In this document: one piece after another, positions 8,303-30,258 of the stretch
How positions within the stretch are numbered: position 1 is the stretch's first letter
Layout: each line of letters starts with the position of its first letter
Source of the DNA: a virus
Virus record (IMG/VR): IMGVR_UViG_3300046648_000165
Coordinates: 1 to 37,203 of that record
Direction: 5' to 3' (one strand)
Length of the DNA stretch: 37,203 nt
Position numbers and translations under genes: made by a program
Notes under the pieces: generated by a model
Databases searched by the model: none
Told to the model about the DNA's origin: nothing
Seen by the model: the letters and a program-made list of their open reading frames with translations, nothing else

Positions 8303-11300
8303 CTAGTCGAGGAGATCGATGACAGACGCAAAGACGTCGTCCATCAGTTCCTGCTTTTCTGGCGCATAGTAGATTTCGCCTGGGCTGAAGCCGATCACGA
8401 GGTTCGCATCGAGCTCCTTGTGGTAGACGATCTTGCCTGCCTGGTCTGACGCCTTGCCGGTGAAGTCTGGCAGGAAGTGTCGGACCACGGTCGAGCCGAG
8501 CAGCACGATGATCGGTGGCTTCAAGGCGTCGATCTCGCGCTCGAGGTAGGGCAGATACATGCGGATCTCGTCGCCCGTGATCATCTTGCCAGCCTTCGGT
8601 CGTTTGAGCAGCGCCGTCCAATAGACGTGCTTCCGTTCAAGCTGATGGCTCATGAGCGCATCGATGACAGGGGCCGACGCCTTGCCGATCGACATCTGAC
8701 CTTCCTGCTCTTCCGGATTGTTGGGCGCGTCCGTGATGATCATGAACTCGGCGTTCTTGCCAAACAGCGGCTGCACCATCATTCCGTCTTCCGACAGATC
8801 CGACTTGTAGTCCTCGATCACCTGCTCGATCAGATCCTTGGTCGCGCGATCGTTCTCCATTCCACGATTGACCGGCACCGTCGCTGTCACCAGGCCGGGC
8901 AGGAGCTCGAGCTGGTCACGGATGCGGCTCGCGTCGTTCGGTCCAAGCTGTCCAGGCTCGATGCGCGAGAATGCACCGACGAGATCGAGGTTCTCCTGGT
9001 GCTTCTTGTTGCACTTGGTCTTGTTGACGCGTGCGAGGAAGTCGGCCTTGTTGTCGAACAGACCAGTCTTTCGCGCCTCGAGAATGGCGTTCGTCGTGTT
9101 GGACGAGATCCCCTTGATGCGCTGGAACGGCATGACCATTCGAACATCGGTAACGATTTCAAAGTGTTCCGAGGAGATGTTGATATCTGGCATGTTGACG
9201 TCGATGCCGAAGCGTCCAGCATCGCGAAGCAGCGCCGGCAGCTTGTCTTCGTCCATCAGCGACAGTGCAGCCGCAAAGAATTCGACCGGGTAGTGCGTCT
9301 TCAGCCACATCGACTGCCACGAGATCAGCGAATATTCGACCGAGTGCGACTTGTTGAAGCCGTAGCCGGCGAAGCCTTCGATCTTGTCGAACAGTGATCC
9401 TGCCCATTCGTCAGTGCAGGCGATCGTGGCCACGCAGCCGTCGACGAAGTTCTGGCGCTCCTTCTTCATCTCCTCGGGCAATTTCTTACCCATGATCTTG
9501 CGAAGCTTGTCAGCTTGCGCGCCGGTGTAGCCGGCGATCACCTGGGAGATCTTCATGACCTGCTCCTGGTAGACGATAACGCCGAAGGTCTCGCGCAGGA
9601 CGTCTTCCATCAGCGGGTGGTCGTAGTCGGTCGTCTCATTGCCTTGCTTGCGGAGATAGTAGCTCTCCATCATGCCGGACTCCATCGGGCCTGGTCGATA
9701 GAGCGCGGTCGCTGCCGTGATATCGTCAAAGGAGATGCAGCCGTCGGCGCCGAGCTCGCGCAGCAGCTTACGCATGCCAGCGCTTTCGAACTGGAAGACG
9801 CCGGTCGTAAGACCAGCCGCGAAGTTCTTCAGCACCGCCTCGTCATCGAGCGGCACCTTCATCAGGTTCACCTTCTTGGCGTGGCGCTCGAAAATGTAGC
9901 GCTGGACAAGCGCGATCAGGTCGAGCGTGGACAGTCCGAGAATATCCATTTTGACCAGGCCCTGGTCCTCGACGATGCGCTTGTCCCAACAGACAACAGC
10001 ACTGTCGCCTTTCCGTCGCTCGATGACGGCGCGCTCCTCGAGATCGACGCCACCGACGACGATGCCGGCCGCGTGCTGGCTCATATTGCGAATGGTGCCC
10101 TCGATGCGCTCCATGATGTCCCAGTGCGCCGGATACTTCTGCGCAAATTCATCGATCTCGCCGACCTCGATGCGGCAGTCTGGCAGGGGAACGTTCGCGC
10201 CGTGCTTCTTGGGGACCAGCTTGGAGATCGAGTATTCCTTTTCAGGAATGGCGAAGGTGCGGCCGACGTCACGGATCGAGGAGGCTGCCGCAAGCGTGCC
10301 GAAGTTCGACACGCCGGCGACGCGCTTCTGGCCATATTTCTGGATCAGGTAATCAACAATCTCGTGGCGACGCGTCGACATGAAGTCCAAGTCGGCGTCT
10401 GGAAGGTCGAGACGCTCTGGATTGATGAAGCGCTCAAACAACAGCCCGAAGCGCAGCGGATCGCAGTCAGTGATGCCCATCAGATACGCAACGAGGGAGC
10501 CGCCCACGGACCCGCGACCAGGACCGACGAGAATGCCGTTCGACTTGGCGAATTTGACGACGTCCTCGACAAGCAGGAAGTAACCGGAGAAGGCCAGCTT
10601 CTTCAGAACGGACAGCTCATATTCAAGCCTTGGCTTGTAGACGTCGATCAGCTCCTGCCGCTCAGGCTTGTGACCGAAGCTTTCCTGACTGAAGCGCTCT
10701 TTCCAGCCGATCTTGCAGAGCTCCACCAGCCGTGCGAACTCATCCGCGGCCATGATCGGCAGCGACACCGGCTGCTTGGACCAGGTGTATTCGACCGCAT
10801 CGACCAGCCAGTCGGTGTTTGCGAGCCCTTGTTTGAACTGTGCGCCGGCACCGACGACACCGCGCAGAGCGACGTGCTTGGCCGCTTTGACGACTTCGAC
10901 GCCGAGGTCTGAAGCCTTCAGCACATGGAAGTCGCGGTTGAAGTTCGACTTGTGCCAGCCGTCGGCGATCTTGTTGCCATTGGCGATCGCATACATGACC
11001 TCGTGGGCGTCTGCCTGGTCGGCTTCGTAGTAGGCAGGTCGAATGACCAGCGGACGCGCCTTGAAGCGGCTGACGAGGTCGAGCGAGCGTTTGTTGACGG
11101 CACCGAAATAGGGCGTGTCGACCGGAATGAGCGGCGCGAAGACGTAATCGGGGTGCAGGTAGTCAACCAGCTTCTCGGTGATCTGTTCGACGTCCTTGCG
11201 CATGATGACGCCATGGGTGTCGCCCAGGTGGATCGCGAGGTGTCCGGCGCCAAGCTTTGCGAACTCTTCCCAGAGATCGTCGTAGCCGAGCTTTGCGGTG

Positions 11301-11689
11301 TAGTAGAAGCGTCCAGGCACCTTGTTGCCGGCTGCGTCCTCAGTGTCGCCGGTGTTGGCCTTCGACAGCAGACGGTAGACGCACTTCAAGCCCTCCTCGG
11401 TCAGCACGTAGGCTGTGAGAAAGTGCTCGGGCGGCATATGCTTTTTCTTCTGGCCCTTTTCAGGTCGCCAGGTCGGATCCTCGGACAGACGCAAGCGCAC
11501 GCCGATGACCGGCTTGATATCGGCCTTCTTGGCGCGGTTGGTGAAGTCAATCATGCCGGTCACGGACATGGTGTCGGTGATCGCGACGGACTTCGCCCCT
11601 TGGGTCTTGGCGATGTCGATCAGCTTCTCGGCCTTGAGAATGCTTTCGCCCAGTGAAAAGTCGGTTCGTGCTGCGAGAATGGCATGCAT
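8303..11689 (-). CDS. DnaE-type DNA polymerase fused to a UDG-like domain
   Basis: A 1128-residue replicative polymerase. Residues 1-250 form a PHP domain (TDFSL, VAITDTMSVTGMIDF, KPVIG) in which the usual HxH metal ligands read AAR, so proofreading or phosphatase activity is doubtful. The C-family palm and fingers follow: GPGRGSVGGSL at 389-399, catalytic PDADLDF at 430-436 (D431, D433), the third aspartate at D582 (KMDILGL), YRPGPME at 664-670 and FNKSHSVEYSLISW at 778-791. A helix-hairpin-helix segment is at about 845-910. Instead of the usual OB and clamp region, residues 979-1128 look like a family 4/5 uracil-DNA glycosylase. ATG 11689 overlaps the preceding stop (TAATG). Last gene of the CobS-sigma operon. 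Confidence 0.93.
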   Translation of the reverse strand: MHAILAARTDFSLGESILKAEKLIDIAKTQGAKSVAITDTMSVTGMIDFTNRAKKADIKPVIGVRLRLSEDPTWRPEKGQKKKHMPPEHFLTAYVLTEEGLKCVYRLLSKANTGDTEDAAGNKVPGRFYYTAKLGYDDLWEEFAKLGAGHLAIHLGDTHGVIMRKDVEQITEKLVDYLHPDYVFAPLIPVDTPYFGAVNKRSLDLVSRFKARPLVIRPAYYEADQADAHEVMYAIANGNKIADGWHKSNFNRDFHVLKASDLGVEVVKAAKHVALRGVVGAGAQFKQGLANTDWLVDAVEYTWSKQPVSLPIMAADEFARLVELCKIGWKERFSQESFGHKPERQELIDVYKPRLEYELSVLKKLAFSGYFLLVEDVVKFAKSNGILVGPGRGSVGGSLVAYLMGITDCDPLRFGLLFERFINPERLDLPDADLDFMSTRRHEIVDYLIQKYGQKRVAGVSNFGTLAAASSIRDVGRTFAIPEKEYSISKLVPKKHGANVPLPDCRIEVGEIDEFAQKYPAHWDIMERIEGTIRNMSQHAAGIVVGGVDLEERAVIERRKGDSAVVCWDKRIVEDQGLVKMDILGLSTLDLIALVQRYIFERHAKKVNLMKVPLDDEAVLKNFAAGLTTGVFQFESAGMRKLLRELGADGCISFDDITAATALYRPGPMESGMMESYYLRKQGNETTDYDHPLMEDVLRETFGVIVYQEQVMKISQVIAGYTGAQADKLRKIMGKKLPEEMKKERQNFVDGCVATIACTDEWAGSLFDKIEGFAGYGFNKSHSVEYSLISWQSMWLKTHYPVEFFAAALSLMDEDKLPALLRDAGRFGIDVNMPDINISSEHFEIVTDVRMVMPFQRIKGISSNTTNAILEARKTGLFDNKADFLARVNKTKCNKKHQENLDLVGAFSRIEPGQLGPNDASRIRDQLELLPGLVTATVPVNRGMENDRATKDLIEQVIEDYKSDLSEDGMMVQPLFGKNAEFMIITDAPNNPEEQEGQMSIGKASAPVIDALMSHQLERKHVYWTALLKRPKAGKMITGDEIRMYLPYLEREIDALKPPIIVLLGSTVVRHFLPDFTGKASDQAGKIVYHKELDANLVIGFSPGEIYYAPEKQELMDDVFASVIDLLD

Positions 11690-11883
11690 TAGCGTGTGAC
11701 CTCGATGAGCTGGAAGCTGAAGGTCGAGCAAGCAATGCCCATGTTTTCGGACAACGCCTTGTCGACGACGTCGATTTCAGCAGAGGAATTGATCGGACTG
11801 TCACGCTGCACGGTCGCGCGGCCGAAGCCTTTCTCATGCAAATAGGCGACCAGATAGACGTGTTTGGAATTGCCGCTTCTCAA
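11689..11883 (-). CDS. Small hypothetical protein, TTG start
   Basis: A 64-residue frame locked between two operon genes: its TTG start overlaps the previous stop (TTGA) after a strong GAGGAGAG site, and its TAA overlaps the polymerase ATG (TAATG). The sequence (SKHVYLVAYLHEKGFGRATV then FSFQLIEV at the end) suggests a small beta-rich domain with alternating strands. Family not recognised. The tight coupling argues that it is translated and used with the polymerase. Confidence 0.7.
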   Translation of the reverse strand: MRSGNSKHVYLVAYLHEKGFGRATVQRDSPINSSAEIDVVDKALSENMGIACSTFSFQLIEVTR

Positions 11884-12419: not shown

Positions 12420-13048
12420 GCAGCGGTCCTTTGAACCTTTTCGGAGAGCTTGCGCAGCTCGGCGAGGATCTTCGTTCTCTCGGGGCGATCAGCGCCCATC
12501 AGACGGAAGACGAAGCCCGTCGTGATCTGGCTAATCAAAACATTCTGCGCGCCGATCTCTTTGGCGTAGTCAGCGCGGGCCTTCAGTTGACGCATTTGCT
12601 CGAGGAGTTCGGGCGGCTGTTCGTAGAGCAGCTTCAGGAACAGAGCAGAGCGGCTGCCGAGACGGCGCAGCGCCCAGGTGTAATGCGTGATCTCCTCGAC
12701 TTCAGCGTCGGGGAGGGGTTCGTTGCCCGGCATCATGTCGCCGAGGTTCGCGCTTTCGTCATCACGACCGGCAGGAGCATCGAGGCTTGATGCGCGCTCC
12801 TCGCCAATGCGGTTGAAGACCTTCCGGTTGATCGCAAGCTTGCTGCGCCGAATACCTTCAATGAGATAGGCCTTGAAGGGCACACCGAGCGTCGGATCGA
12901 ACGTGTCACGGGCGCGACACCAAACCATCCAGAGCTCTTGCTCGACGTCCTCATGGCTGAGCGATGTTGCGCCGGAGCCATGAAGCTTTCTTGCGATCGA
13001 CCAGGACATACGCCGGATCAGTTCGACGCTATCCTTGTGGTCGATCAT
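12416..13048 (-). CDS. RNA polymerase sigma factor
   Basis: The 210-residue protein carries a sigma70 region 2 signature at about 31-74: SHEDVEQELWMVWCRARDTFDPTLGVPFKAYLIEGIRRSKL, matching the DLVQEG...AAEKFDP..G..FSTYA...IRRAI pattern that binds core polymerase and melts the -10. A short acidic linker (90-120) leads to a C-terminal helical part (122-185, ALRRLGSRSALFLKLL then a possible HTH) in the place of region 4. It lacks regions 1 and 3 and is about the size of ECF and phage late sigma factors. ATG 13048 overlaps the CobS stop (TGATG); an upstream start at 13105 would overlap CobS. It may read the phage promoter family described here. Confidence 0.8.
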   Translation of the reverse strand: MIDHKDSVELIRRMSWSIARKLHGSGATSLSHEDVEQELWMVWCRARDTFDPTLGVPFKAYLIEGIRRSKLAINRKVFNRIGEERASSLDAPAGRDDESANLGDMMPGNEPLPDAEVEEITHYTWALRRLGSRSALFLKLLYEQPPELLEQMRQLKARADYAKEIGAQNVLISQITTGFVFRLMGADRPERTKILAELRKLSEKVQRTAA

Positions 13049-14280
13049 CAGGCGAAGTGCCTCTGAACGACCTGGTCGACAGTCACTTGGTCGATGCGTG
13101 AGCAACGATTGATGAATGCGAGACGGAAGCCGTAATTCGGATTGTTACCGAAGACGATTGTCAGCGAAGCGGCGTTGATCAGCTCGCGCGGCGAGATCGT
13201 CATCGACATTTCACCCTTGGCAAAGCTCTCGCGGATAGCACCCGCGACCTTGACGAACTTGTCAGCGTCGGGCTTGCCGAGACCGGCCTTCGAGCGCAGC
13301 ACCAGGCTTTCCTGCTTCGGATCCATGTATTTCACTTCCTTCGTGATATGGAATCGCGAGTAAGAAGCTGCGTTCTGGATCATCGTGCCTTGGTAGAGGC
13401 CAGTTTCGTCACCGACGCCGTTGGTGTTGCCGGTCGCAACGAAGCGGAAGTCGGGATGCGGATGAATGACGCGCTGGTCGATCGGCGCATCCTTGATAAC
13501 AAGCGGCTTGCCCTCGAGCACTGGCTGATAGAGCGCGATCACCGACGGCATGGCGAAGTCGTATTCGTCAGCGCAGTAGACCATGCCATACTTCATCGCC
13601 ATCGCGAGCGGGCCATACTGGAACTCGGTGACAGTCTGCGGTTTCTGGACGACAACGATCGAGCCGTCAGCTTTGAGCTCCTGGCTGTCGGCCATGACGG
13701 TGCGCACGACATACTGTCCGAGAATGTGGGCTTCTTCGGTGTTGCCGGTGTGCTGCACGCGCAAGAACGGGCGACCGGTGCGCGCGGCGCACTGTTCAAG
13801 CACGGTCGTCTTGCCTGTGCCGTGATAGCCCCAGAGATACGTATTCATCTTCAGTTCGAAGCCGAGGCAAACGACCTTCACGAGGTCGATATCGAAGACG
13901 TATTCGGGATCGGACTGACTGATGTAGGCATCAGCTTCGTGGTGATGCTCGGTCAGGCAGCGCAGAGCGATCGGGTTGCCGGTCGATGACAGACCGGTTG
14001 AGGGATCGAGGTCGAAGATTTCGGAGAGCGAGCGCTCGACGAAGGCGAACGGCTGCATCGGGTTGAAGGCGGTCGAGCCAGCAGCCTTGCGGTCAGCAGC
14101 TTCCTTGGCCTTCAGCGCTGCGCGCCTGCCTTTCGGAGACAGAACGGGCTCGCCAGGATAGGCTTCCTTGTAGCGCTCGATCGTCCAGTCTGCGTGATTT
14201 TCCTTGAGATAGAGCCTGATCGAGTGCGTCTTCCCGCCGTCGATGTGGCAAATGATCATGTCGTCGTTTTCAGTGGTCAT
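13048..14280 (-). CDS. CobS/MoxR-type AAA+ ATPase
   Basis: A 410-residue AAA+ ATPase. Walker A GYHGTGKTT is at 151-159, Walker B VYCADEYDF at 234-242 (CADE in place of DEIN), sensor 1 VATGNTNG at 281-288, and SYSRFHI with a following arginine-rich helix at the end. The N-terminal stretch HSIRLYLKENHADWTIERYKEAYPG matches CobS proteins, the ring ATPase subunit of aerobic cobaltochelatase. The gene upstream encodes a CobT-like VWA protein, so the two form a MoxR-VWA pair. No CobN or other cobalamin gene is seen, so remodelling of another target by the ring is more likely than cobalt insertion (inference). GGAG precedes the ATG. First gene of the CobS, sigma, polymerase operon. Confidence 0.9.
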   Translation of the reverse strand: MTTENDDMIICHIDGGKTHSIRLYLKENHADWTIERYKEAYPGEPVLSPKGRRAALKAKEAADRKAAGSTAFNPMQPFAFVERSLSEIFDLDPSTGLSSTGNPIALRCLTEHHHEADAYISQSDPEYVFDIDLVKVVCLGFELKMNTYLWGYHGTGKTTVLEQCAARTGRPFLRVQHTGNTEEAHILGQYVVRTVMADSQELKADGSIVVVQKPQTVTEFQYGPLAMAMKYGMVYCADEYDFAMPSVIALYQPVLEGKPLVIKDAPIDQRVIHPHPDFRFVATGNTNGVGDETGLYQGTMIQNAASYSRFHITKEVKYMDPKQESLVLRSKAGLGKPDADKFVKVAGAIRESFAKGEMSMTISPRELINAASLTIVFGNNPNYGFRLAFINRCSRIDQVTVDQVVQRHFA

Positions 14281-14322
14281 GCTTCAATCTCCGTTTGAAC
14301 CAGATCAGCGCTCTTTGTCGCT

Positions 14323-14342
14323 CTCAATCAATATTTACTTAC
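14323..14342. promoter_or_regulatory. Operator-like dyad O4
   Basis: CTCAATCAAT-ATTTACTTAC, second of a pair upstream of the CobS operon, 43 bases before the start codon. Confidence 0.6.
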
Positions 14343-14362
14343 TAACAAGCGCAGCGATGGGA
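14337..14362 (-). promoter_or_regulatory. Weak phage-class promoter candidate
   Basis: Minus-strand GCTTCCC, 13 bases, TTAGTA between O5 and O4. The -35 side fits the family but the -10 is poor. An alternative is TTGATT-N17-TTGTTA with its -35 inside O5. Confidence 0.3.
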
Positions 14363-14382
14363 AGCAATCAATATTTACTGAC
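14363..14382. promoter_or_regulatory. Operator-like dyad O5
   Basis: AGCAATCAAT-ATTTACTGAC; its centre is 40 bases from that of O4, close to four helical turns, which would favour cooperative binding. Confidence 0.6.
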
Positions 14383-14399
14383 CGCTTCGCATTCCCTGC

Positions 14400-16868
14400 T
14401 TATTTCGTGAGGATCTTTTTGAGTTCGCCCATGACGGCGCGCGGCAGCTCCTCGACCGAATTGAGGATGAGGTAGTTGTCGTAGAAACGAGCAACCGCGT
14501 CAGACTTGATGCCGACACCGACGAGGTCGAAGCCCTGGTCTGTCAGGCGCTTGACCATCATCTTCAGGTGTTCGTCGTCGTTCTCGGCGCCGGCAGGAAA
14601 GCCGTCTGACAGCACGATGATGACCTTGCGCTTCTCCTTGCGCTTGGCAAGACGCATCGCAGCATATTCGAGGGACTCGCCGTCTATATTGCCGCCCATG
14701 TGAGCCTGGACCTTGCGCTGATAGGCGAAGCGCTTCTTGACCTCGGCGTTGATGCGCTCGTTGAACTCCTTGAAGATCGGCATGTAGATCGGGTAGATGC
14801 GCGAGAACTTGACCCTCGACTTCGCCACTTCCTTCTGCAGCGCGTCATTGAACTCTTCCATCTGCGTTTGCGTCAAGACGCCACCCGAGCCCCACATAGA
14901 CGCTGTCGTGAAGCCCATGCACTCTGACGGAATGTTGCAACGCTCAAGCACCTGGGCAAGGGCGTATGAGGCTGACATCGCTGTTGCCATCGGCAAGCCC
15001 TTCATCGATCCGGAGCAGTCGGACAGCAGCGACACGGCTGTGTCTTTGGCGCGGATCTCTTCGCGCCGGCTGAAGACGCGGGCATCGCCGGCCGACAGAC
15101 GGTGCAGACCTGCGCTATTGAGCTTGCCCGAGCGCTGACCGGCGACGTTGAAGACGCGCGACTGCGCTGCCATCATGCGCTCGATGTCCTTCTGCATGAC
15201 GCCTGTGAGCGACCGGGTCTGCTCCTCGAGCTCGACCGTCCATCTGGACTTGTAGTCTTCCGGCACCGGCAAGATCTTGATCACGTCATACTCGCGGGTG
15301 AAGATCGAATAGTCGGACGCGCGGCAGGCTTCGATCGCCTGCTTGACGATGATCTTGACCAAGGCTGCCGACAGGTCTTTCTCGTCGAGGGCGTCATCGG
15401 TCATCTCTTCGAACGGGTTGACGTCCTTGTCGTAGCCGATACCACCGACCTCGATGTTGTCTTCCTCGTCCTCGGGCGTTTCTTCGCCTTCGGTCTCTTC
15501 CTTGCCGTCGTTGTCGTCCTCGATCGCGAGGTTGCTCAGATCAGGCTTGCCACCTTGCTCGCCGTCGTCTTCACCTTCCTCGGTGTCATCACTCTCGGCA
15601 TCAGCGCCTTCAGCGTCGCTACCGCCTGATTCAGGCTCTTCGCCAGTCCGATCCCCACCGGACTCAGCCTTGCCATCACTCTCCTCGGCTTCAGCGTCTT
15701 CCTCTTCGGGCGCACTTCCTTCACCATCGTCTGTGTCAGAAACTTCCGCATCGTTTTCGTCGCTGCTGTCATCAGGATCATCGGCTTCGCTGCCGGAACC
15801 ATTCTTATCGTCGGCATCGTCAGCGTCGCCTTTTTCGCTGTCGTCCTTGTCGCCAGAGCCATCGGCCTCGGCTTCGTCAGCCTCATCGTCATCGCTGCCG
15901 TCTGAGCTGTCATCGCCAGCGCCTTCGGTGCCCTCGTCGTCTTCGGTCTGCTCGCCTTCACCTTCAGAATCGCCTTCGCCGGCATCATCTTCCTTCTCCT
16001 CTTCGCTCTCGTCCTCGCCTTCACCGCCCGACGCTTTGTCATTGTCTTCGGTGTGCTCGCGCTCACCTTGACCTTCACCGTCGCCGGTCTGCTCTTCGTC
16101 GGAGTGGTCCTGATCGTCTTCACCTTCGGACTCGGGTTGCTCCTGGTCGTCGCTGCTTTCGCCGTCGGACTTGTCTTCTTCCTCTTCGGGCGGCTGCTCG
16201 GGAGGGGCAGGGGGTGCTGGCGGGGGTGGCGGGTAGAGAATGGCTTCGACCTCGACCGCGATATCGTAGGTCTGAGCCGTGTCAGCCAGGAGTGGCATCT
16301 TGTCTTTCGACGCCTGGGAGAAGCGCTGCAAGAACGCCTTCACCAGAGGGTGATCCCAGTATTTGTTGTCGTCCATGTAGTTCTGGAACTCGACGTGACC
16401 GGCGAGCGCGCGAAACATGACGACGATGAGGTAGTCGAACTCGTCCTGATTTGATTGGGCACTCTTAATCGCCGGCTCAGTGACGTTGCGCAGGAAGTAT
16501 TCGCGCAGCCGAGAGAAGTTGCGCTTCGAGCCGGGGAAGTCATCGCTCATAAGCCGCTCAATCATCGTATCCTCGATGATGTTGTGCAGGTTATGGAGAC
16601 GCCTGGACTTCTCACGCGCCTTGAACGTGAAGTCGGTGTAGAGGACGTGCGCGACTTCGTGGTCGATAAACCCTTGAATAGCCATGACAAAGTCAGGCTC
16701 TGCATTGTCTGGCAGAAGCGGAATGTTCACGCGATGGGGTAGACCAGTGACGGGGTGCGGCTGAACGTAGGCTTGTGTGCCGATTTGCGTAACCACCAAG
16801 CCTTTGCCCGCAAGCATCGGAATGATCTTCTTGATTGCTTCGCGCAGGATCACAATGTCGTTGTTCAT
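14400..16868 (-). CDS. CobT-like VWA protein with HExxH motif and acidic core
   Basis: An 822-residue partner of the CobS ATPase. Residues 55-110 contain H70-E-V-A-H74 (GFIDHEVAHVLYTDF) followed by IIEDTMIER with E99/E104, the arrangement of gluzincin metallopeptidases. Residues 217-500 are an extreme low-complexity acidic region of Asp, Glu, Ser and Gly after a Pro-rich start, as in CobT proteins. From residue 614 a VWA domain begins with the MIDAS motif DCSGS (617-621), then SDG at 754-756. In the MoxR-VWA and cobaltochelatase families the VWA subunit links a substrate to the AAA+ ring. CobT is usually about 600-640 residues, so this is longer. P7 and O6 lie directly upstream. Confidence 0.88.
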   Translation of the reverse strand: MNNDIVILREAIKKIIPMLAGKGLVVTQIGTQAYVQPHPVTGLPHRVNIPLLPDNAEPDFVMAIQGFIDHEVAHVLYTDFTFKAREKSRRLHNLHNIIEDTMIERLMSDDFPGSKRNFSRLREYFLRNVTEPAIKSAQSNQDEFDYLIVVMFRALAGHVEFQNYMDDNKYWDHPLVKAFLQRFSQASKDKMPLLADTAQTYDIAVEVEAILYPPPPPAPPAPPEQPPEEEEDKSDGESSDDQEQPESEGEDDQDHSDEEQTGDGEGQGEREHTEDNDKASGGEGEDESEEEKEDDAGEGDSEGEGEQTEDDEGTEGAGDDSSDGSDDDEADEAEADGSGDKDDSEKGDADDADDKNGSGSEADDPDDSSDENDAEVSDTDDGEGSAPEEEDAEAEESDGKAESGGDRTGEEPESGGSDAEGADAESDDTEEGEDDGEQGGKPDLSNLAIEDDNDGKEETEGEETPEDEEDNIEVGGIGYDKDVNPFEEMTDDALDEKDLSAALVKIIVKQAIEACRASDYSIFTREYDVIKILPVPEDYKSRWTVELEEQTRSLTGVMQKDIERMMAAQSRVFNVAGQRSGKLNSAGLHRLSAGDARVFSRREEIRAKDTAVSLLSDCSGSMKGLPMATAMSASYALAQVLERCNIPSECMGFTTASMWGSGGVLTQTQMEEFNDALQKEVAKSRVKFSRIYPIYMPIFKEFNERINAEVKKRFAYQRKVQAHMGGNIDGESLEYAAMRLAKRKEKRKVIIVLSDGFPAGAENDDEHLKMMVKRLTDQGFDLVGVGIKSDAVARFYDNYLILNSVEELPRAVMGELKKILTK

Positions 16869-17251: not shown

Positions 17252-17662
17252 TCATTTCGATGCGGCGAAGAGTTCCTTCAGGCCCGCGGTCTGTCGATCG
17301 TTGACCTTCGGATCTTCACTGTCCGAGGCTTCACGAATGATGTTGATGATCTCGACCTCGTTTGCAGAGACCACAGCATCGATCATCTTGGCCGACTGAG
17401 GATCGTCTCCCATGAACTGCTCAAGGGCGAGCCGGAAGAGATACATCGGGTCGACGTCGATAGCACGAGCAAGCCCGGCGACACGGTCCAGGGGAAGCTT
17501 AGCGTCGCCCTTTTTGATCATCGTGACCATGTTAGACTGTGTCCAGCCAGCAGCCTGAGCAATTTCTCGATGGGACTTGCTGACCTTCTGGTCGATGTGC
17601 TTGTCGAGAAAACGCGCAACCTTCGTGTTAGCGTAGGGACGAACGTAGGTAGTGGTGGACAT
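17252..17662 (-). CDS. XRE/Cro-CI-type helix-turn-helix regulator
   Basis: A 136-residue protein with a Cro/CI-type HTH at about 28-78: SHREIAQAAGWTQSNMVTMIKKGDAKLPLDRVAGLARAIDVDP. The second and third helices (REIAQAAG, QSNMVTMIKKG) form the DNA-reading unit. The C-terminal 55 residues are charged and helical, probably for dimerisation; no RecA-cleavage Ala-Gly site is visible. It faces the plus-strand RHH-repC genes across a 404-base control region holding O8. As the only clear CI-like protein here it is the best candidate to bind the 13 dyads and to act as the immunity or maintenance repressor (inference). AAAGG lies 11 bases before the ATG. Confidence 0.85.
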   Translation of the reverse strand: MSTTTYVRPYANTKVARFLDKHIDQKVSKSHREIAQAAGWTQSNMVTMIKKGDAKLPLDRVAGLARAIDVDPMYLFRLALEQFMGDDPQSAKMIDAVVSANEVEIINIIREASDSEDPKVNDRQTAGLKELFAASK

Positions 17663-17799: not shown

Positions 17800-17814
17800 T
17801 ACCTATTGATTAAA
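17791..17814. promoter_or_regulatory. Operator-like split dyad O8
   Basis: GTAAGTCAAT, then ACCT, then ATTGATTAAA: the two half-sites of the dyad separated by four extra bases, in the XRE/RHH divergent region. Confidence 0.45.
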
Positions 17815-17931
17815 AAAAGACAATTGTCCGTGAGGTGAGGTCTTTAATTTCCTTGCAGGAATCCTTGAAATGAAAGCGAAGTGAAAGGATTCGGGTCGGT
17901 CAAGAATATTTTCTGTGTCATTTCCTTACGG

Positions 17932-18007
17932 CAATCTAAGATTGTTCCATAACCTATCTTATGAAATCGTAGATTGTTGTTTATTTACGTATGAATCCTA
18001 AGGGATT
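17932..18007. promoter_or_regulatory. Three spaced AATC/GATT dyads upstream of the RHH gene
   Basis: AATC-TAA-GATT (17933-17943), AATC-GTA-GATT (17965-17975) and AATC-N6-GATT (17994-18007) have centres 32 and 30.5 bases apart, about three helical turns. They may be operators for the RHH protein or part of the replication control region. Confidence 0.4.
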
Positions 18008-18066
18008 GCCAAATCAGGAGAATCGGTGTCACTTGTGGCGTGCAACACCAAGGAGATTCGGCCTAC

Positions 18067-18267
18067 ATGTCCTCTTCCGAAAGAATGGCTAAGTCCCGCG
18101 AGAGACGCAAGCGGGAGGGTATGTCGGAAGCGACGATCTGGTTGACCAAGGACGACAGCGAGAACCTCTCGAGGTTCATGCAGGCGTGCAATATTCAATC
18201 GAAGCAGGACGCGATCTCCGCGGCGCTACGCAAAGCATTTGAGGGACAGACAGAAACGGCAATCTGA
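18067..18267 (+). CDS. Ribbon-helix-helix regulator
   Basis: A 66-residue protein, MSSSERMAKSRERRKREGMSE at the start, with a strand ATIWLTKDD (22-30) followed by two helices (ENLSRFMQACN and KQDAISAALRKAF), the Arc/MetJ-type ribbon-helix-helix plan in which the paired strands read the major groove. The ATG at 18067 is preferred because AAGGAG stands upstream; a GTG at 18040 would place that site inside the gene. It is on the plus strand upstream of repC, where repABC plasmids carry repB, so it may control repC expression or copy number (inference). Confidence 0.75.
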   Translation: MSSSERMAKSRERRKREGMSEATIWLTKDDSENLSRFMQACNIQSKQDAISAALRKAFEGQTETAI

Positions 18268-18275
18268 AGACGTGA

Positions 18276-18308
18276 AAAACCCCGGAAGCGGCAAACTTCC
18301 AGGGTTTT
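18276..18308. terminator. Bidirectional terminator-like hairpin
   Basis: AAAACCCC-GGAAG pairs with CTTCC-A-GGGTTTT around a seven-base loop, giving T tracts in both directions (TTTT on plus, TTTTT on minus). It can end the RHH transcript and a minus-strand antisense RNA. Confidence 0.65.
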
Positions 18309-18396
18309 GATATTCACGGAGACTGAGAAAACCCGATTAAAGGATTCACGTCTTTTGCGCAAATCGGTTTTCCCATGATTTCCTTGACCTGTCAAC
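18276..18396 (-). ncRNA. Possible counter-transcribed RNA against the repC leader
   Basis: repABC replicons have a small antisense RNA opposite the repC leader that limits copy number. Here the minus strand has a TTGACA at 18396-18391, the complement of hairpin B, and a GC-rich hairpin ending in TTTTT at 18276. A good -10 was not found 17 bases after TTGACA, so start and length are uncertain. Confidence 0.35.
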
Positions 18397-18446
18397 GTTC
18401 CGAAAGGAGCGAACGTAGAAGTTTTGCCTCGATTTAAGGAATCGAC

Positions 18447-19556
18447 ATGCAAACTCAGGGAAACCTGGGCTGGCGTAAGCTTGGAAAGCCAGTCCAGATA
18501 CATGATCAGCCGACTATAGAGGCGGATCGTCGCAAGCTCTACAAGCTAAAGAATCTTGCCGCGGTAGCATTAGGATTGTCTAAGAGCCAAATCGCGGTGC
18601 TGAATAGCCTAATTTCTTACTTCCAGGAGCCGATCGCAGGCCGGCTGTTGGTTTGGCCCTCGAACCAGTCATTGATGACGGCAACCGGATATAGTGAGCG
18701 AGCCGTTCGGTTGGCTATTAGACAGCTCATTTCTATTGGAATCATCCAGCCAAAGGATTCGGCCAATGGAAAACGATTCGCCGACCGATCGCCGACCAAA
18801 CAAATCCTTGATGCGTTCGGTTTCGACCTCGCCCCTCTCCTGCTTCGCGAGAAGGAATTCAAGGATTCAGTTCTTGAAATAGAGGCGCGCAAGGAAATGC
18901 AATCGCGCCAGCTCGACGACATCACCATCTGCCGGCGCCAGGTCCAGGAATTCCTTCGCGCCTTCGGAGAGCTCGACGCCTCGATCGACATGTCAACATT
19001 ACAGAGCGCTTTCGATCAAATGGTTGAGCGAACACCACGCCGGTCGCTCAATCGCTTCCCTGGCCCTCTTCTGGCCGAATGGAGCGCACTCCTGAAGGTC
19101 GCTGAGCATCAATATCATACCGCCTTTGCCGGCAATGATTGCCGTCACAAAGAGAACAACAACGATATACCTGAGCAGTCTTGTTCAAACGGCCAAGGAG
19201 AAATGGTTAGGGGCGAAACGGTGAACCTGGCCGACATGCGAGCCGCCTGCCCGGACGCTATGGAGCTGGCGATCGGCGTGCGCACGGAAGGCGACATGAT
19301 CAGGGAGGCCGCGCGGTTGCGTGGCGAGTATGGGACTCACCGGACGGCCTGGGAGGAAGCCTGCGACGATCTGGGTCGGCCGCGCGCCGCGGTTTTGATC
19401 TTCTATCTGCTTCAGCTCTACGTGGACGACCAGACGGGCCGGCGAACGATCAACAATTTCGGCGGGCTCTTCAGGAGCTGGGCGCGAAAAGTGGCAGCCG
19501 GCGAAGTCGATCTCGCAAAGGAGATCCACGTCATGCGGCGAAAGCGAGCGCACTAA
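18447..19556 (+). CDS. repC: RepC replication initiator (repABC-plasmid type)
   Basis: A 369-residue initiator. The N-terminal half (RRKLYKLKNLAAVALGLSKSQIAVLN, WPSNQSLMTATGYSERAVRLAIRQLISIGIIQPKDS) is the RepC winged-helix origin-binding part. The C-terminal 110 residues (DMRAACPDAMELA, WEEACDDLGRPRAAVLIFYLLQ, TINNFGGLFRSWARKVAAGE) are the other conserved RepC block. Residues 225-265 are a variable linker, under which the origin of replication usually lies. RepC is the essential initiator of low-copy alphaproteobacterial plasmids and megaplasmids. Length is a little below the usual 400. AAGGA precedes the ATG. No RepA or RepB is present nearby, so partition must be handled elsewhere or not at all. 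Confidence 0.95.
   Translation: MQTQGNLGWRKLGKPVQIHDQPTIEADRRKLYKLKNLAAVALGLSKSQIAVLNSLISYFQEPIAGRLLVWPSNQSLMTATGYSERAVRLAIRQLISIGIIQPKDSANGKRFADRSPTKQILDAFGFDLAPLLLREKEFKDSVLEIEARKEMQSRQLDDITICRRQVQEFLRAFGELDASIDMSTLQSAFDQMVERTPRRSLNRFPGPLLAEWSALLKVAEHQYHTAFAGNDCRHKENNNDIPEQSCSNGQGEMVRGETVNLADMRAACPDAMELAIGVRTEGDMIREAARLRGEYGTHRTAWEEACDDLGRPRAAVLIFYLLQLYVDDQTGRRTINNFGGLFRSWARKVAAGEVDLAKEIHVMRRKRAH
19090..19210. other. Probable origin of replication within repC
   Basis: In repABC plasmids the origin maps to the AT-richer variable middle of repC. The matching stretch here encodes the linker AEHQYHTAFAGNDCRHKENNN and is locally richer in A and T than the rest of the gene. This rests on family knowledge and position only. 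Confidence 0.35.
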
Positions 19557-19584
19557 AAAAAAGGGCGCTCGATGAGGAGCGCCC
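19555..19584 (-). terminator. Strong minus-strand terminator behind repC
   Basis: Minus-strand stem GGGCGCTC/GAGCGCCC with a six-base loop is followed by eight T residues. It shields repC from minus-strand transcription arriving from the ligase operon and would end any short RNA started at P11. Confidence 0.85.
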
Positions 19585-19665: not shown

Positions 19666-19820
19666 CGTTTTTCTTTCGAAGAAACGGGAATTGGCCGAGT
19701 GATACAACACCAGCGCATATCCCAGCCCTGCTGCTCAAGCATGAGAAACAGGCTCAACGAAATGAACGTGCTGACATTGCCGTCCGGACTCCGCGGGTTA
19801 TAGCGCTCGCCTGGTGTCAT
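19653..19820 (-). CDS. Small hypothetical protein (55 residues)
   Basis: The ATG at 19820 overlaps the ligase stop codon (ATGA), so this short frame is probably translated by coupling. The product (MTPGERYNPRSPDGNVSTFI) has a mildly hydrophobic centre (ISLSLFLMLEQQGW), two adjacent cysteines and a basic end (SSKEKRKAD). No family recognised. It is the last gene of the WGR, ligase operon. Confidence 0.55.
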   Translation of the reverse strand: MTPGERYNPRSPDGNVSTFISLSLFLMLEQQGWDMRWCCITRPIPVSSKEKRKAD

Positions 19821-21352
19821 GCGGCCTCTCTCAGCACCTCGCCGGCCTTGTCGTCGCGGAATCGAACGGCTCGCGGGTGACGGAGTGAGCCGTCGGGCGT
19901 GACCTCGTTGAACTCGATTTCGAGCATGCGGCCGAGGAACTTGAAGCCGCGATCGTGGATCTGATCGGCCGGCAGCGAGTAGCCTGGTTTGAAGCCAACC
20001 TTCGGATCGATACCGAGGATAGCTGCGTCGTATTGCCAGTCTTCCCAGAGCTCGTCGCGCTGGTCGGATGACCATCCACCACCGATGCGCACGTTGACAC
20101 CCTTGTGGTCGACGATCGCGCCGCCCAGACGGTCTTCGTTCTCGGCGTTCTCCTCGCCGTTGAAGAAGCCGTTGATGAAGAGGTCGATTGTTTCCTCCGG
20201 CTTGATCTTCAGCCAGGTGTGCGACTTCTTCTTCTCGTAGGCGCCGTCATAGGTCTTCACCATCGCGCCTTCGAGGCACTTGAGCTTGCCGGTCGCCTTG
20301 TCGATCGTCTCCTTGTTGAGCTCCGCTTCGCGATCTTTGTCGCCACGGGCCAGATAGTTGGCGATCGTCTGGTTGATCAGCTTCTCGTAGATCGCCTCGA
20401 TCTCTTCGTGGCTGTTGGCCTCATAGAGGTCAGTGATGTAGACGGGCGCGTGCGTCACCGCCCTCACCTCACTGACGAAGGTTTGAAGCAGCGTGCGCCG
20501 CGTCTCCCAAGGCACCTGGTAGGGCAAGTTGCCGATGAAGCCGGAGTAGGGCAGCAGATCGAACGCATGCAGCTCGGCGTCGTAAGCCTGACCGTTCTTG
20601 CGCTTGACCGCGCCCATGTTCGCAAACAGCCCGTTGAGAGCCTCGCCGTCGAGCGTGAAGGTCGGATCGTCATTGTTGCCGTCGAAGAGCACCGTGGCCA
20701 GATCACGATAATGATCATCAACGTCGCCGTTGCGCGCACCATCGCGAATGTGTCGTGCTGCCTCGAGCAGCGGCTCTGCCAGTTCCTGGAACGCCGGAAT
20801 GGCCTTGCCTGACCGCGTGAAGAAGGCGCCCTTCCCTTCGGTCGCAATGAACGTGCATCGATAGCCGTCGAGCTTCGGCTCGACCGGAACCGGGAACTTC
20901 TTGACCCTCCCCTCTTCATAGGGATGAGCGCGCATGACGCCGAACGATGGTAGGAAGCCTGGCAGCACTGCCTCGATAGAAGTTGCTGCAATACCAGCCT
21001 TCAAGTCCTTGTTAAGCATCAAGAAAAGGATTTCGCGGGCCGGCTCTTCGAGAATAGCGAAGATGGTTTCGATCGCGTCTTTGGCAGAATTGCCGGACAG
21101 CTTGCGGGTTGCCAGGTCGTCGAGGAGCGAGCCCACGGTCGGATGATCGATACGGATGTAGAAATCGCCCTTCTCCATGGGCGGCATCTTCTTCAGCGTC
21201 ACGCCGTAGGTGACGAACGGGTCGTAGGTCCATTTGAGAATGAACTTGCCGAGGTCGTCGGCGAGCAACTTCTCAAGACCGGCCTGTTTGTCCAGGCGAC
21301 CGGGCGAATTAGCGATATCGCTAATCAGCGAAAGGGCTTCAGATGCGTTCAA
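19817..21352 (-). CDS. ATP-dependent DNA ligase
   Basis: A 511-residue ligase. The nucleotidyl-lysine motif I is EPK160-LDGYR, with later motifs III (TLDGEAL), IV (EGAMVK) and V (WLKIKP), then an OB-fold part (INGFFNGEENAE, GVNVRIGGGWS). It also has the N-terminal helical domain seen in T4-type ligases, and its size is close to T4 ligase (487). It seals nicks in the new phage DNA using ATP. The start is TTG at 21352, six bases after AGGAGA; the ATG-like starts further upstream overlap the previous gene. A TTAGCGA dyad lies within codons 9-15. Second to last gene of the WGR operon. Confidence 0.92.
   Translation of the reverse strand: MNASEALSLISDIANSPGRLDKQAGLEKLLADDLGKFILKWTYDPFVTYGVTLKKMPPMEKGDFYIRIDHPTVGSLLDDLATRKLSGNSAKDAIETIFAILEEPAREILFLMLNKDLKAGIAATSIEAVLPGFLPSFGVMRAHPYEEGRVKKFPVPVEPKLDGYRCTFIATEGKGAFFTRSGKAIPAFQELAEPLLEAARHIRDGARNGDVDDHYRDLATVLFDGNNDDPTFTLDGEALNGLFANMGAVKRKNGQAYDAELHAFDLLPYSGFIGNLPYQVPWETRRTLLQTFVSEVRAVTHAPVYITDLYEANSHEEIEAIYEKLINQTIANYLARGDKDREAELNKETIDKATGKLKCLEGAMVKTYDGAYEKKKSHTWLKIKPEETIDLFINGFFNGEENAENEDRLGGAIVDHKGVNVRIGGGWSSDQRDELWEDWQYDAAILGIDPKVGFKPGYSLPADQIHDRGFKFLGRMLEIEFNEVTPDGSLRHPRAVRFRDDKAGEVLREAA
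21308..21325. promoter_or_regulatory. Perfect TTAGCGA-type palindrome inside the ligase start
   Basis: ATTAGCGAT-ATCGCTAAT is a perfect 18-bp palindrome within the first codons of the ligase gene, sharing TAGCGA-NN-TCGCTA with the ssb leader. It is also coding (LISDIAN), so chance cannot be excluded. Confidence 0.35.
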
Positions 21353-21362
21353 GGGTATTCTC

Positions 21363-21923
21363 CTATGCTGCGATGTTGAGGGCAGCGGCCATATCGCCGG
21401 TCTTTGCTGCCTGATTGAGGGTGTCGTTCTTCTTGGCGACGACGGTGCGCTGGCGCGGTGTGTCGTCGGTCTCGTCACGAACGGTCATCGAGACCTTCTT
21501 CGGCGCGATGAACTGGGATTTACCTGGCGCCGTCTTGAGCTGCGCCTGGATACGCTCCTTTGCGCTGTAGAGCAGGTCGCGCTCGTTTGGCGTCAGACTG
21601 AATCGCTCGACCTCGCGGGCGATCGGAACGGTGTTGACGATGCGCTCAAGCACATCGGCGTGCAGCTTGCCCTGCTTTGGCTCCTTCGAGCCGTAGTCGT
21701 CAGAGACCTCGCCCTTGCCGTAGCTGATGTTCTTGACGATCTGGGCAGCCGGACACATCGAGCAGTTCATGGCAGCCTGACAGCCCTGGCGCTTCTCGAC
21801 GTGCTTGCCCATCCAGACGGCTTCGCGCAGCATCGTGCATGCGGCCATCTTGGTGTTGGCGTTGAAGACTGGGCAGGTGAAGGTGAACTGGTTGTCGGCT
21901 GCAAGCGTGAGGTAGTGCGCCAT
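21363..21923 (-). CDS. Cys-rich protein, possible zinc finger
   Basis: ATG 21923 (MAHYLTLAADNQFTF) overlaps the preceding stop (TGATG) and follows GGGAG; a longer frame from 22031 would overlap that gene heavily. The 186-residue product has C17, C29, C48, C54 and C57 (GCQAAMNCSMCPAAQ), likely to bind zinc or another metal. The rest is charged and helical, and the end LNQAAKTGDMAAALNIAA recurs in the gene cut off at the left edge. Function unknown; the operon with ligase and WGR protein suggests DNA end or nick metabolism. Confidence 0.75.
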   Translation of the reverse strand: MAHYLTLAADNQFTFTCPVFNANTKMAACTMLREAVWMGKHVEKRQGCQAAMNCSMCPAAQIVKNISYGKGEVSDDYGSKEPKQGKLHADVLERIVNTVPIAREVERFSLTPNERDLLYSAKERIQAQLKTAPGKSQFIAPKKVSMTVRDETDDTPRQRTVVAKKNDTLNQAAKTGDMAAALNIAA

Positions 21924-22806: not shown

Positions 22807-23931
22807 TCAAGATCCCTTTGCAGCTTTTTCTGCCGCTGCGAACGGGTTTCTAAGACGCCATTTGACGTCGATCGCCGGCGTCCAGAGGGTCGCGGCGTAG
22901 TAAGCCGCACGCACGACCTCGGCGATGACTTCGTTCGGGTCTTTCTTGTAGGGCAGCAGTGCGATGCGCACCTTGAGCCCGATTGACGTCAGGAGCTTGG
23001 CAGCGTCCAACGCTGCGATCGTCGCCTTGGGTTCCCCGTCCCACATGATCGTGACCGTCTTCACGCCCTGGCGCTTCAGTTGCAGGAAGCGGCCGAGCTG
23101 GTCGTCGCCGGTCGATGAGCCATAGGACAGATGCTTGCCGAAGGAGCCGACAGCGACGATCCGGCGCAGATCGACTTCCTCGTCGAACGCGATCTTGATG
23201 GCTGCGACGTCGAAGAAGCCTTCGCCCATGACGACTTCGTCGGTGAGCTGGACGTTCTGACCGTTCAAGAGGAACTTGCCGGTGCCTGGCAGGCCTTTCG
23301 GGAAGAGGTATTTGCGCTCGACCAGGGCAGCCGCCTCGCCTGTCGTCAGATCGCGGCCCTGGAACGTCTTCAGGGTGCCGTCGAGGTCGAAGACTGGGAT
23401 GATGACGCGGTTGGAGAACCACTGCTGCTGCAGAACGCCCTCGTCGTCTCTGAACGGCCATGAGCCATACTGGCAGTAGCGCAGCCCGAAATACTTGGCG
23501 TAGTCGCCGGTGATGCCGCGGTCCTCGAGATAGACCAGGTTCTCGCCGTCTTCCGTCGGCATGGGCGTCGAGAAGGGCAGCTTTACTTCGCCGTGGTCGA
23601 CAGCGACCGTGGCCATGCGCTTGGGGCGCCAGCCCTGCTCCTTCATGATCTCCTTGCACTTTTCGATCGTCTCGCGCCAGTTGTCATAGCCGAAGTGCAG
23701 CTTGACGAACTTGCCCTTGGAGAAGGTCTGATTGCAGACGAAGCAGTTCCCCTGCCCCGTGTCGGCATTGAGGTAGACGCGCGATCGGCCGTCACCACAG
23801 TCCGGGCAATACTTGGCGTTGATCTGCATGCCGGATGAGCCTCGCCCCATTTTGTAGGGCAAGCTCTCGCGGTCGAAGAAGAACTCGAGGTCGAGGTTCT
23901 CGGTGATCTCCTGGAAGATATTATCGGTCAT
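22807..23931 (-). CDS. DnaG-type primase
   Basis: A 374-residue primase. An N-terminal zinc ribbon has C42-x2-C45 and C63-x2-C66 (YCPDCGDGRSRVYLN, GNCFVCN), used to recognise template sites. A Toprim catalytic domain follows with EG..D at 237-241 (MGEGFFD) and WDGE at 297-300 (DxD reads DGE). It is shorter than bacterial DnaG (about 580) and lacks the helicase-binding C-terminus, similar to T4 gp61 in size. It makes RNA primers for the lagging strand. Its ATG overlaps the helicase stop (ATGA), so helicase and primase are made together as a primosome. Confidence 0.92.
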   Translation of the reverse strand: MTDNIFQEITENLDLEFFFDRESLPYKMGRGSSGMQINAKYCPDCGDGRSRVYLNADTGQGNCFVCNQTFSKGKFVKLHFGYDNWRETIEKCKEIMKEQGWRPKRMATVAVDHGEVKLPFSTPMPTEDGENLVYLEDRGITGDYAKYFGLRYCQYGSWPFRDDEGVLQQQWFSNRVIIPVFDLDGTLKTFQGRDLTTGEAAALVERKYLFPKGLPGTGKFLLNGQNVQLTDEVVMGEGFFDVAAIKIAFDEEVDLRRIVAVGSFGKHLSYGSSTGDDQLGRFLQLKRQGVKTVTIMWDGEPKATIAALDAAKLLTSIGLKVRIALLPYKKDPNEVIAEVVRAAYYAATLWTPAIDVKWRLRNPFAAAEKAAKGS

Positions 23932-25298
23932 ACACGACCCATGACTTTGGTAAGGAACTTGAGCTTTTCGCGGTCCTGTCGGATGAGCAGCGAGAAGCCG
24001 TCCTCGGTGTTGCGGGATGCGACCCAGGTCAGACGCGCTTCGCCTGACTTTTTCTCGGCGTCGGTCGCGTTAATGGCGATGACCACGTCGGCCGTTCTGA
24101 TCTTGTTGAAGTCTTCGGCAACGTCGGTCATTTTGGCCGTGTGCGCCGCGGCGCCGGCGCGGTTCGTCTGAGTGGCCGACAAGAGCGCCAGGTCTTCTTC
24201 GAAGGCGATCGCGCGGAGATCGATGTAGATTGAGCGCAGGTTGTCGATCTGGTTGTCGGAGCGATACTCGGCAGCCATGATATCCGCGTAGTCGACCGAG
24301 AGCAGGTCGAGGATGATGCCTTCAGAGCGCCACTTCTCAAGGATGCGCTTGATCTGCGATGGTTTCAGGGTGCCGGATGCGAAGTCGCGCAGGATCAGGT
24401 GGCCGGCCTTGGCTTCAGCAGCCTTGATGCGGGCCTTGACGGTCTGCGGGTCATCTTTAAGCAGGCGCATGGCCGTGTCTGAGACGTTGGCGTCGAGACG
24501 GTCGGCGATGATGGCCTTCGACACTTCGAGCGACAGATAGGCCGTGTTCATGCCAAGGAGCGATGCGTTCTTGGTGAACTCCCCGAGCCCGAGGGACTTG
24601 CCGGCCTTCGCAGCGCCCATCAGCAGCGACATTTCGCGACGGCCCCAACCACCGTGATAGAGATTGGCGTCGATCTCGGCATAGCCGGTCGAGATGCCGC
24701 GCTTGACGATCTTGCCGGCCTTCCAGTCTTCGCGAACCTGTGTGCGAGCCTCGATCTCTCCGAAGTAGTGATAGTCGCCTTCGTCCGTCGTCACGCCGAC
24801 ATTGAGCGCTGCCTTCTGAAGCTTCTCGATACCGGCGAAGTCACCACGCTGAAGCAGCTCGACGCTCTTCAGGATCGCCTGCTCCATTGCTGTGAACTTG
24901 GCGAAGTCTGAGACCTTCTCGGCGACATAAGACGAGTTCGACAGGTCGGTGCGCACCGCATCCTTGATGGCGATCTTGATCTCGGCCAGGCTGTCGTCGC
25001 GGATCCGCTTCTTGGCCTTCTCGTCCTTCAGGATCTGGGTGAGGATGCGCAGATCAGGCACCGACTTGTGGACCTGCAGGTGGTTCTTGATCAGGCTGAT
25101 AAGCTGGCCGTGGGCGTCGTTTGCGAAATAGGCCGGGTCGATCAGATCCTTGGTGCGGTTGGCAAACTGCGTGTCGCGCATGAACAGCGCCAGGGTCTTC
25201 TTCTGAAAGCCTTCGTCAAAGTCCCACTTGGGCGCTTCGGAGTCCGCGACTTCCTCGTCGTGATCTTCTGCAATTGCTGCTGCGGCCTGGGACATCAT
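23928..25298 (-). CDS. DnaB/gp41-type replicative helicase
   Basis: A 456-residue hexameric helicase. An N-terminal helical domain (25-165) is followed by a RecA-like core: Walker A GAAKAGKS at 228-235, Walker B LLSVDYADIM at 332-341, an LSATQTNRAG segment and an arginine-finger region near the end. The first Walker loop differs from the common GxPxxGKT. ATG 25298 (or the ATG at 25295) follows GAAAGG; a TTG at 25316 would lie within operator O10. It unwinds the fork and pairs with the primase encoded next. Confidence 0.92.
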   Translation of the reverse strand: MMSQAAAAIAEDHDEEVADSEAPKWDFDEGFQKKTLALFMRDTQFANRTKDLIDPAYFANDAHGQLISLIKNHLQVHKSVPDLRILTQILKDEKAKKRIRDDSLAEIKIAIKDAVRTDLSNSSYVAEKVSDFAKFTAMEQAILKSVELLQRGDFAGIEKLQKAALNVGVTTDEGDYHYFGEIEARTQVREDWKAGKIVKRGISTGYAEIDANLYHGGWGRREMSLLMGAAKAGKSLGLGEFTKNASLLGMNTAYLSLEVSKAIIADRLDANVSDTAMRLLKDDPQTVKARIKAAEAKAGHLILRDFASGTLKPSQIKRILEKWRSEGIILDLLSVDYADIMAAEYRSDNQIDNLRSIYIDLRAIAFEEDLALLSATQTNRAGAAAHTAKMTDVAEDFNKIRTADVVIAINATDAEKKSGEARLTWVASRNTEDGFSLLIRQDREKLKFLTKVMGRV

Positions 25299-25311
25299 GT
25301 TACCTTTCGAA

Positions 25312-25331
25312 GTCAATCAATATTTACTGAC
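25312..25331. promoter_or_regulatory. Operator-like dyad O10
   Basis: GTCAATCAAT-ATTTACTGAC, 19 of 20 matches, directly before the helicase ribosome-binding site. Confidence 0.65.
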
Positions 25332-27612: not shown

Positions 27613-27619
27613 GTGACCC

Positions 27620-30256: not shown

Positions 30257-30258
30257 GA

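Follow-up and report, generated by a model that had tools for sequence, protein, structure and literature searches.

A predicted RHH–antisense RNA–repC replicon in a fragment of a probable phage-plasmid of the Rhizobiaceae

Results

A repC gene is embedded in phage replication genes

The DNA analyzed here (the window), 37,203 bases long, makes up an entire IMG/VR record. Since the whole record lacks terminal repeats, it represents a fragment of a larger genome. At positions 18447–19556 of the plus strand it contains repC, encoding a replication initiator of 369 amino acids (Pfam RP-C and RP-C_C; PF03428, E = 1.2e-39). The reading frame is intact, starting with ATG and having no internal stops. 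Both conserved blocks named in the initial annotation of this DNA were recovered by Pfam, RP-C at residues 23–172 (E = 3.5e-37) and RP-C_C at residues 264–362 (E = 2.2e-11). No PDB entry matched the RepC profile.

The repC cassette is the sole rightward unit amid leftward phage replication genes. Its left neighbor, transcribed divergently, is an XRE-family regulator (17252–17662, minus strand; weak matches to BetR and phrog regulators), followed by genes for a CobT-like protein (14400–16868), a CobS/MoxR protein (13048–14280) and a DnaE-type DNA polymerase III alpha subunit, used as a backbone marker (8303–11731, minus strand; Pfam DNA_pol3_alpha, PHP and UDG; 86% identical to its counterpart in Rhizobium phage RHEph10). 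To the right lie an ATP-dependent DNA ligase (19817–21379, minus strand; Pfam DNA_ligase_A_M; 77% identical to RHEph10) and, as parts of the phage backbone, a primase (22807–23931, minus strand; phrog_47; 89% identical to RHEph10) and a DnaB-like helicase (23928–25316, minus strand; homologous to RHEph10 gp032). A terminator-like hairpin with an 8-bp stem followed by T8 is found between the convergent repC and ligase genes (19563–19584, minus strand). Tail genes are located beyond 27 kb and a lysozyme gene at 33159–33788. Coordinates and domain matches thus agree with the earlier description of RepC as lying between phage replication genes on one side and XRE, CobT-like and polymerase genes on the other, with tail and lysis genes less than 20 kb away.

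Several other genes of the window have features of their own. The uracil-DNA glycosylase domain of DnaE (Pfam UDG, E = 4e-11) is fused to the C-terminus of a protein that also has a PHP domain, and the fusion is kept in RHEph10. The CobS/MoxR ATPase and the CobT-like vWA protein (13048–16868), the latter with a long acidic low-complexity middle, are both present in the whole group. The pair is annotated as cobalamin genes; because CobN is absent, a non-cobalamin MoxR–vWA function looks as likely. A T5 A1-like DNA transfer protein is encoded at 30677–32536 (phrog_1745, E = 2e-160). RHEph10 and LM21 have one, and the portions of plasmid p5 and of the Shinella plasmid that were read showed none, which points to two-step injection of DNA in only part of the group. 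Tail-fibre-like genes at 27031–30633, between PhoH and A1, show no or partial similarity to RHEph10, where the position differs, and likely form a host-range module.

A small RHH-like gene precedes repC

Directly upstream of repC lies a small gene of 66 codons (18067–18267, plus strand; alternative GTG start at 18040), described earlier as encoding a ribbon-helix-helix (RHH) protein. Weak profile and fold matches uphold this assignment as RHH-like. An alignment of the protein (n = 28) compared with the PDB matched NikR (E = 2e-5) and EndoAI, and weakly CopG and ParD. An AlphaFold model (pLDDT 86), for which the alignment was built from the window and loci from IMG/VR and genomes, found mostly RHH proteins among its best PDB fold matches, with weak E-values. 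Pfam assigned RHH-type families to some members and gave no match in the window's own copy. The gene product is a candidate autorepressor that may repress the promoter of the RHH–repC operon. The putative promoter region (17993–18059, plus strand) contains GANTC sites at 17993, 18020 and 18055 and a conserved block, TTGCCAAATC..AGAATCGGTGTCACT. Of operator palindromes upstream of the RHH gene, none was conserved and none stood out.

An antisense RNA is predicted between the RHH gene and repC

Replicons of the repABC and repC kinds are known to encode an antisense RNA ahead of repC (PMC10194956), and by sequence prediction the window has one as well. In the gap of 179 bp between the RHH gene and repC we predict a countertranscribed antisense RNA (ctRNA) on the minus strand (18276–18360), starting near 18360 and ending in a terminator-like hairpin. 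The hairpin, read from 18308 to 18276, comprises 33 nt and is followed by a T run (-20.7 kcal/mol, z -4.5). Compensatory changes were observed in 7 of its 12 pairs among 12 sequences, a covariation score reached by none of 500 shuffles, and across the phage loci the terminator region folds with a median z of -3.1. The predicted ctRNA promoter (18367–18395, minus strand) consists of TTGACA at 18390–18395, a 17-nt spacer and GAAAAC at 18367–18372. Of 40 phage loci, 30 have TTGACA in antisense orientation, with 1.2 expected from shuffles, and the 17-nt spacer is nearly invariant. A generic sigma-70 scan detected no promoter at threshold for the antisense RNA, because the -10 box matches at only three of six positions; the promoter is predicted from its conservation. 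Neither in the whole window nor in the gap (18230–18460) did an Rfam family reach its gathering score. The best sub-threshold hit in the gap, the sar antisense RNA (23.6 vs 43 bits), was treated as a chance resemblance of terminators. We infer that the ctRNA may exert antisense control over RepC.

A candidate origin and a cluster of GANTC sites

In p42d the origin lies within repC, near an A+T-rich stretch at 450–850 bp (PMC3155836). Among phage relatives, the 100-bp segment of repC with the lowest GC content starts at about 600–800 bp in 39 of 44 genes. The corresponding A+T-rich dip in the window (19097–19246, plus strand) is, by analogy, a candidate origin region inside repC; with 48–52% GC it ranks second in this gene, in which the lowest 100-bp segment lies at about 80 bp.

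GANTC is the methylation site of CcrM. Outside the RHH–repC cassette the motif is scarce in the window, where 48 sites compare with 244 expected from shuffles (five times rarer). At least two sites occur in the RHH promoter region of about 150 bp in 39 of 41 phage loci, which is three times the shuffle expectation, versus 0.25 times in the flanks. The densest 500-bp bin coincided with the cassette in 9/9 genomes, of each of which 34–115 kb were read. The window has a weaker GANTC cluster near 1.9–2.4 kb. The composite motif GANTC-N2-6-T[CT]ACT was present upstream of the RHH gene in 28 of 41 phage loci versus 0.16 expected, a flattering expectation, some of the same loci having served to define the pattern. 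The repABC loci are GANTC-rich and their expression is controlled by CcrM and GcrA in Agrobacterium (PMC11514494); the phage cassette may be wired to the same CcrM cell-cycle clock.

Relatives exist as phages and as circular plasmids

By megablast and per-gene comparison, the window is collinear with about 18–52 kb of RHEph10 (115 kb) and also with the circular plasmid p5 of Pararhizobium qamdonense (115.7 kb). Protein identities to RHEph10 and p5 are 86% for DnaE, 87–89% for the primase, 86–89% for the helicase and 85–86% for CobS, and the phage replication, lysis and tail genes follow the order of RHEph10. With 37.2 kb, the window covers roughly one third of a genome of the RHEph10 kind (about 115 kb) in conserved gene order; the genes for terminase, capsid and partition lie beyond its limits.

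The search of RepC against repABC plasmids and phage-plasmids that had been proposed for this gene returned both phage and circular plasmid relatives. Among the closest replicons, those listed as phages are RHEph10, RHph_Y2_11, RHph_N1_10, RHph_X66, B1VFA and V1VFA-S, and listed as plasmids are P. qamdonense p5, pLM21S1, pRlX6, pAMS5a and replicons of Shinella zoogloeoides and Methylobacterium oryzae. The same gene order is found in plaque-forming phages (RHEph10, RHph_Y2_11, B1VFA) and in complete circular plasmids of 115–120 kb (P. qamdonense p5, pLM21S1 and those of Shinella and Methylobacterium), which occur in at least six sequenced strains. The annotation of pRlX6 (L014, L025) shows split genes, repC and dnaE among them, reflecting decay or sequencing errors.

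In 30 relatives of 110–122 kb, RepC, ParA and ParB were each detected in 30/30, a serine recombinase in 1/30, and a tyrosine integrase and the RepABC-type RepB (PF07506) in 0/30. In RHEph10, ParA (102.5 kb) and ParB (106.2 kb) are about 70 kb away from repC (33.3 kb); in p5, ParA (45.4 kb) and ParB (49.0 kb) are about 45 kb from repC (92.9 kb). Partition in the group is therefore present yet detached from repC. The claim that no RepA/RepB pair lies near repC stands, as none occurs in the window; partition as such is not missing, since the relatives encode a ParA/ParB of non-RepABC type far from repC. Two ParB-domain genes stand close together in nearly all 30 relatives (106.2–107.4 kb in RHEph10, and equivalents); in RHEph10 and p5 a helicase gene lies between them and ParA. 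The window being a fragment, we infer from these relatives that the complete phage has ParA/ParB, a terminase and capsid genes and no integrase, and the phage would itself replicate as a plasmid.

Plasmid-like prophages of the RHEph10/pLM21S1 group have been in the literature since 2015 (PMC4447125), and a 2025 report describes B1VFA and V1VFA-S as having parA, parB and repC (PMC12509600). These genomes of about 115–122 kb, with separate ParA/ParB and no integrase, share gene order and RepC with the window. The idea of a phage kept as an extrachromosomal replicon is hence supported but not new. Against the temperate cycle presumed for the group, the plasmid pLM21S1 was not induced by mitomycin C (PMC4447125; also PMC5537653).

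Distribution of the RHH–repC cassette

We collected 46 viral and 80 bacterial loci with RepC relatives, added annotated ones, and scored their surroundings. The bacterial relatives were found with an alignment query; a single-sequence search of genome contigs found none. In 41 of the 45 distinct phage-like loci the gene directly preceding repC encodes an RHH protein; RepA plus RepB lie nearby in 0/45. Phage-like loci of the group without a detectable RHH gene or RepAB upstream of repC are L052, L054, L057 and L070; the record of L054 contains a serine recombinase. Among non-phage loci (n = 87), 56 have RepA and RepB, 25 have the RHH gene and 3 have both. In Methylobacterium and Microvirga, L079, L085 and L099 combine the RHH–repC cassette with RepA/RepB within 5 kb and are possibly double replicons or transitional forms. 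The RepC proteins of small fecal records named 'Bacteriophage sp.' (24–32% identity) fall outside the group.

Most non-phage loci of the RHH type belong to replicons of Microvirga and Methylobacterium; some are on conjugative plasmids of Rhizobium. The latter are plasmids of Rhizobium leguminosarum/beringeri (L017 and hits H62–H69; e.g. pRlX1, 318 kb), and the RepC of their RHH cassettes is 62–70% identical to that of the phage-plasmids. The RHH–repC cassette of pRlX1-type plasmids represents traffic between phage-plasmids and conjugative plasmids.

The cassette moves between phage backbones

The window and RHEph10 belong to the same backbone clade and differ in the type of their RepC cassette. 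Their RepC proteins are 42% identical, versus 76–89% for the neighbors on either side, and identity at the DNA level is reduced from about 17.8 to 19.6 kb, rising again on both sides. The window's cassette type is common to P. qamdonense p5 (RepC 69% identical) and IMG/VR 2802428818. The RHEph10-type RepC, in turn, resembles that of the distant LM21/X66/B1VFA backbone (68–71% identity; DnaE about 65%) more than that of its own backbone sisters (42–45%). For tree tests, groups were picked from identity tables ahead of tree building. The RepC tree rejects the backbone clade (p-AU 3.3e-4), and the RepC grouping is rejected by the trees of DnaE (8e-38), ligase (1.7e-5) and primase (3.4e-3). The tree of the short XRE protein does not reject it (p = 0.068). 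XRE was considered as part of the swapped cassette and discarded, its identity following the backbone (76% to RHEph10), although its tree is indecisive. A second, independent swap was found in L036, which has a backbone of the LM21/B1VFA group (primase 79–81%, ligase 68–73%) and a RepC 87% identical to that of L037, to which its primase is 59% identical; rejection was obtained in both directions (p of 3e-4 or lower). By these comparisons and trees, the cassette was swapped in two cases without the phage backbone. It has been proposed in general terms that plasmids and phage-plasmids often trade genes for replication and partition, perhaps as an escape from incompatibility (PMC10879196). The swaps in the window's group are a sharply bounded instance of such trade, and escape from incompatibility is probably their reason as well.

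The low RepC identity might instead reflect fast divergence in place under selection for new incompatibility. Such a process would fit the co-divergence of RHH and RepC (rank correlation 0.71) and the nature of ctRNA and RepC as incompatibility determinants, able to diversify. Acceleration, however, cannot bring RepC closer to a distant backbone, which is what both the RHEph10-type RepC and the pair L036 and L037 display, and the AU tests reject in both directions; we therefore regard divergence in place as very unlikely. That a repC plasmid and a prophage were joined by misassembly or by chance is hardly credible. The contig is metagenomic, the step in identity at RepC is steep, and the third-position GC of repC is lower (0.65 compared with 0.73–0.83), yet the same cassette is present at the same place and in the same orientation in isolate genomes and 40+ phage loci. 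Moreover, the independent contig L021 (IMG/VR 3300046538) spans both junctions with 95–100% identity, except for the variable XRE–RHH stretch (17801–17950). With the junctions spanned, RepC present in all 30 relatives scanned and the tyrosine integrase absent from them, nothing was found of the kind that had been named as speaking against a phage-plasmid.

Another rival reading is a strictly lytic phage whose RepC acts only as lytic initiator, the plasmid copies in genomes being occasional or defective carrier states. In its favor, RepC is surrounded by the phage replication genes, plaque-forming isolates of the group exist, pLM21S1 was not inducible (PMC4447125), and pRlX6 has several split genes. 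We nevertheless consider a purely lytic phage unlikely. ParA and ParB in all relatives scanned, the complete circular plasmids, the predicted copy-number type of antisense control and the same cassette on ordinary plasmids together argue for stable low-copy maintenance.

Discussion

Several features of the window cassette are common to the repABC replicons of Alphaproteobacteria: the N- and C-terminal domains of RepC, an A+T-rich region in repC, the upstream antisense RNA and the enrichment of GANTC. In repABC replicons, however, repA and repB are located directly upstream in the operon, where the window cassette has the RHH gene, and the ParA/ParB of the RHEph10 group are unrelated to RepA/RepB in size and position. 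Replicons of the pRmeGR4a-type repC family (PMC10194956 and work cited there) resemble the window in having repC outside a repAB operon and a TTGACA antisense promoter upstream. We rejected this family as the home of the window, since the window RepC is closer to repABC RepC (32% identity, score 305) than to the orphan RepC of pRmeGR4a (28%, score 155), upstream of which no RHH gene was detected (best score 3.3 bits). The RHH–ctRNA–repC organization is distinct from both the repABC operon and the repC-only replicon of pRmeGR4a.

A small RHH gene, an antisense RNA in the gap and then the initiator gene are also arranged in this order in the copG–RNAII–repB region of pMV158 (PMC4485353). That rolling-circle streptococcal plasmid uses a RepB unrelated to RepC, and the likeness is an analogy of working, not of kinship. 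Extrachromosomal mycobacteriophages with parABS/RepA (PMC7157519) and P1 are, like the window's group, temperate, with a plasmid initiator, ParAB and pressure to avoid incompatibility, although their initiators and phage backbones are unrelated to those of the window.

In the open-licence papers searched, neither an RHH gene preceding repC nor such a cassette, its mapped swaps or its GANTC cluster is described; a search limited to such papers argues only weakly for novelty. A far-reaching proposal, possible although on balance doubtful, is that RHH–ctRNA–repC forms a separate, undescribed class of RepC replicon. In this class an RHH autorepressor would replace RepA/RepB, control of the alphaproteobacterial theta initiator would be dual as in pMV158, expression would be gated by CcrM methylation, and phage-plasmids and plasmids would trade a plug-in incompatibility cassette whose choice decides co-residents. 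If true, the choice of cassette, rather than capsid or immunity, would decide which co-resident plasmids and phages a phage tolerates.

We consider it quite probable, taken as a whole, that the window is a fragment of a temperate Rhizobiaceae siphophage of the RHEph10/pLM21S1 group, maintained as a low-copy circular plasmid by a swappable RHH–antisense RNA–repC replicon whose initiator gene was taken over from rhizobial plasmids. In the proposed working, RHH and repC would be expressed on a single transcript, and the RHH protein would repress its promoter. The antisense RNA from the gap would block RepC synthesis and so set copy number and incompatibility, while RepC made in cis would open the origin inside repC. 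The promoter GANTC sites may tie firing to host CcrM methylation and hence to the cell cycle, and ParA/ParB, encoded tens of kilobases away, would partition the copies. Phages of the group would exchange the whole cassette apart from the rest of the genome, probably escaping incompatibility, and the choice of cassette probably decides which plasmids and viruses share a cell.

By these results the window belongs to a group of rhizobial phage-plasmids that is on record yet has received little study, and its replicon is defined to a clonable region of about 1.7 kb. Should the proposed wiring hold, plasmid replication of these phages would be timed by the CcrM/GcrA cell cycle of the host, and exchange of a single small cassette would change their incompatibility group; the reasons for coexistence or exclusion between related phage-plasmids and symbiosis plasmids in rhizobia would then become testable.
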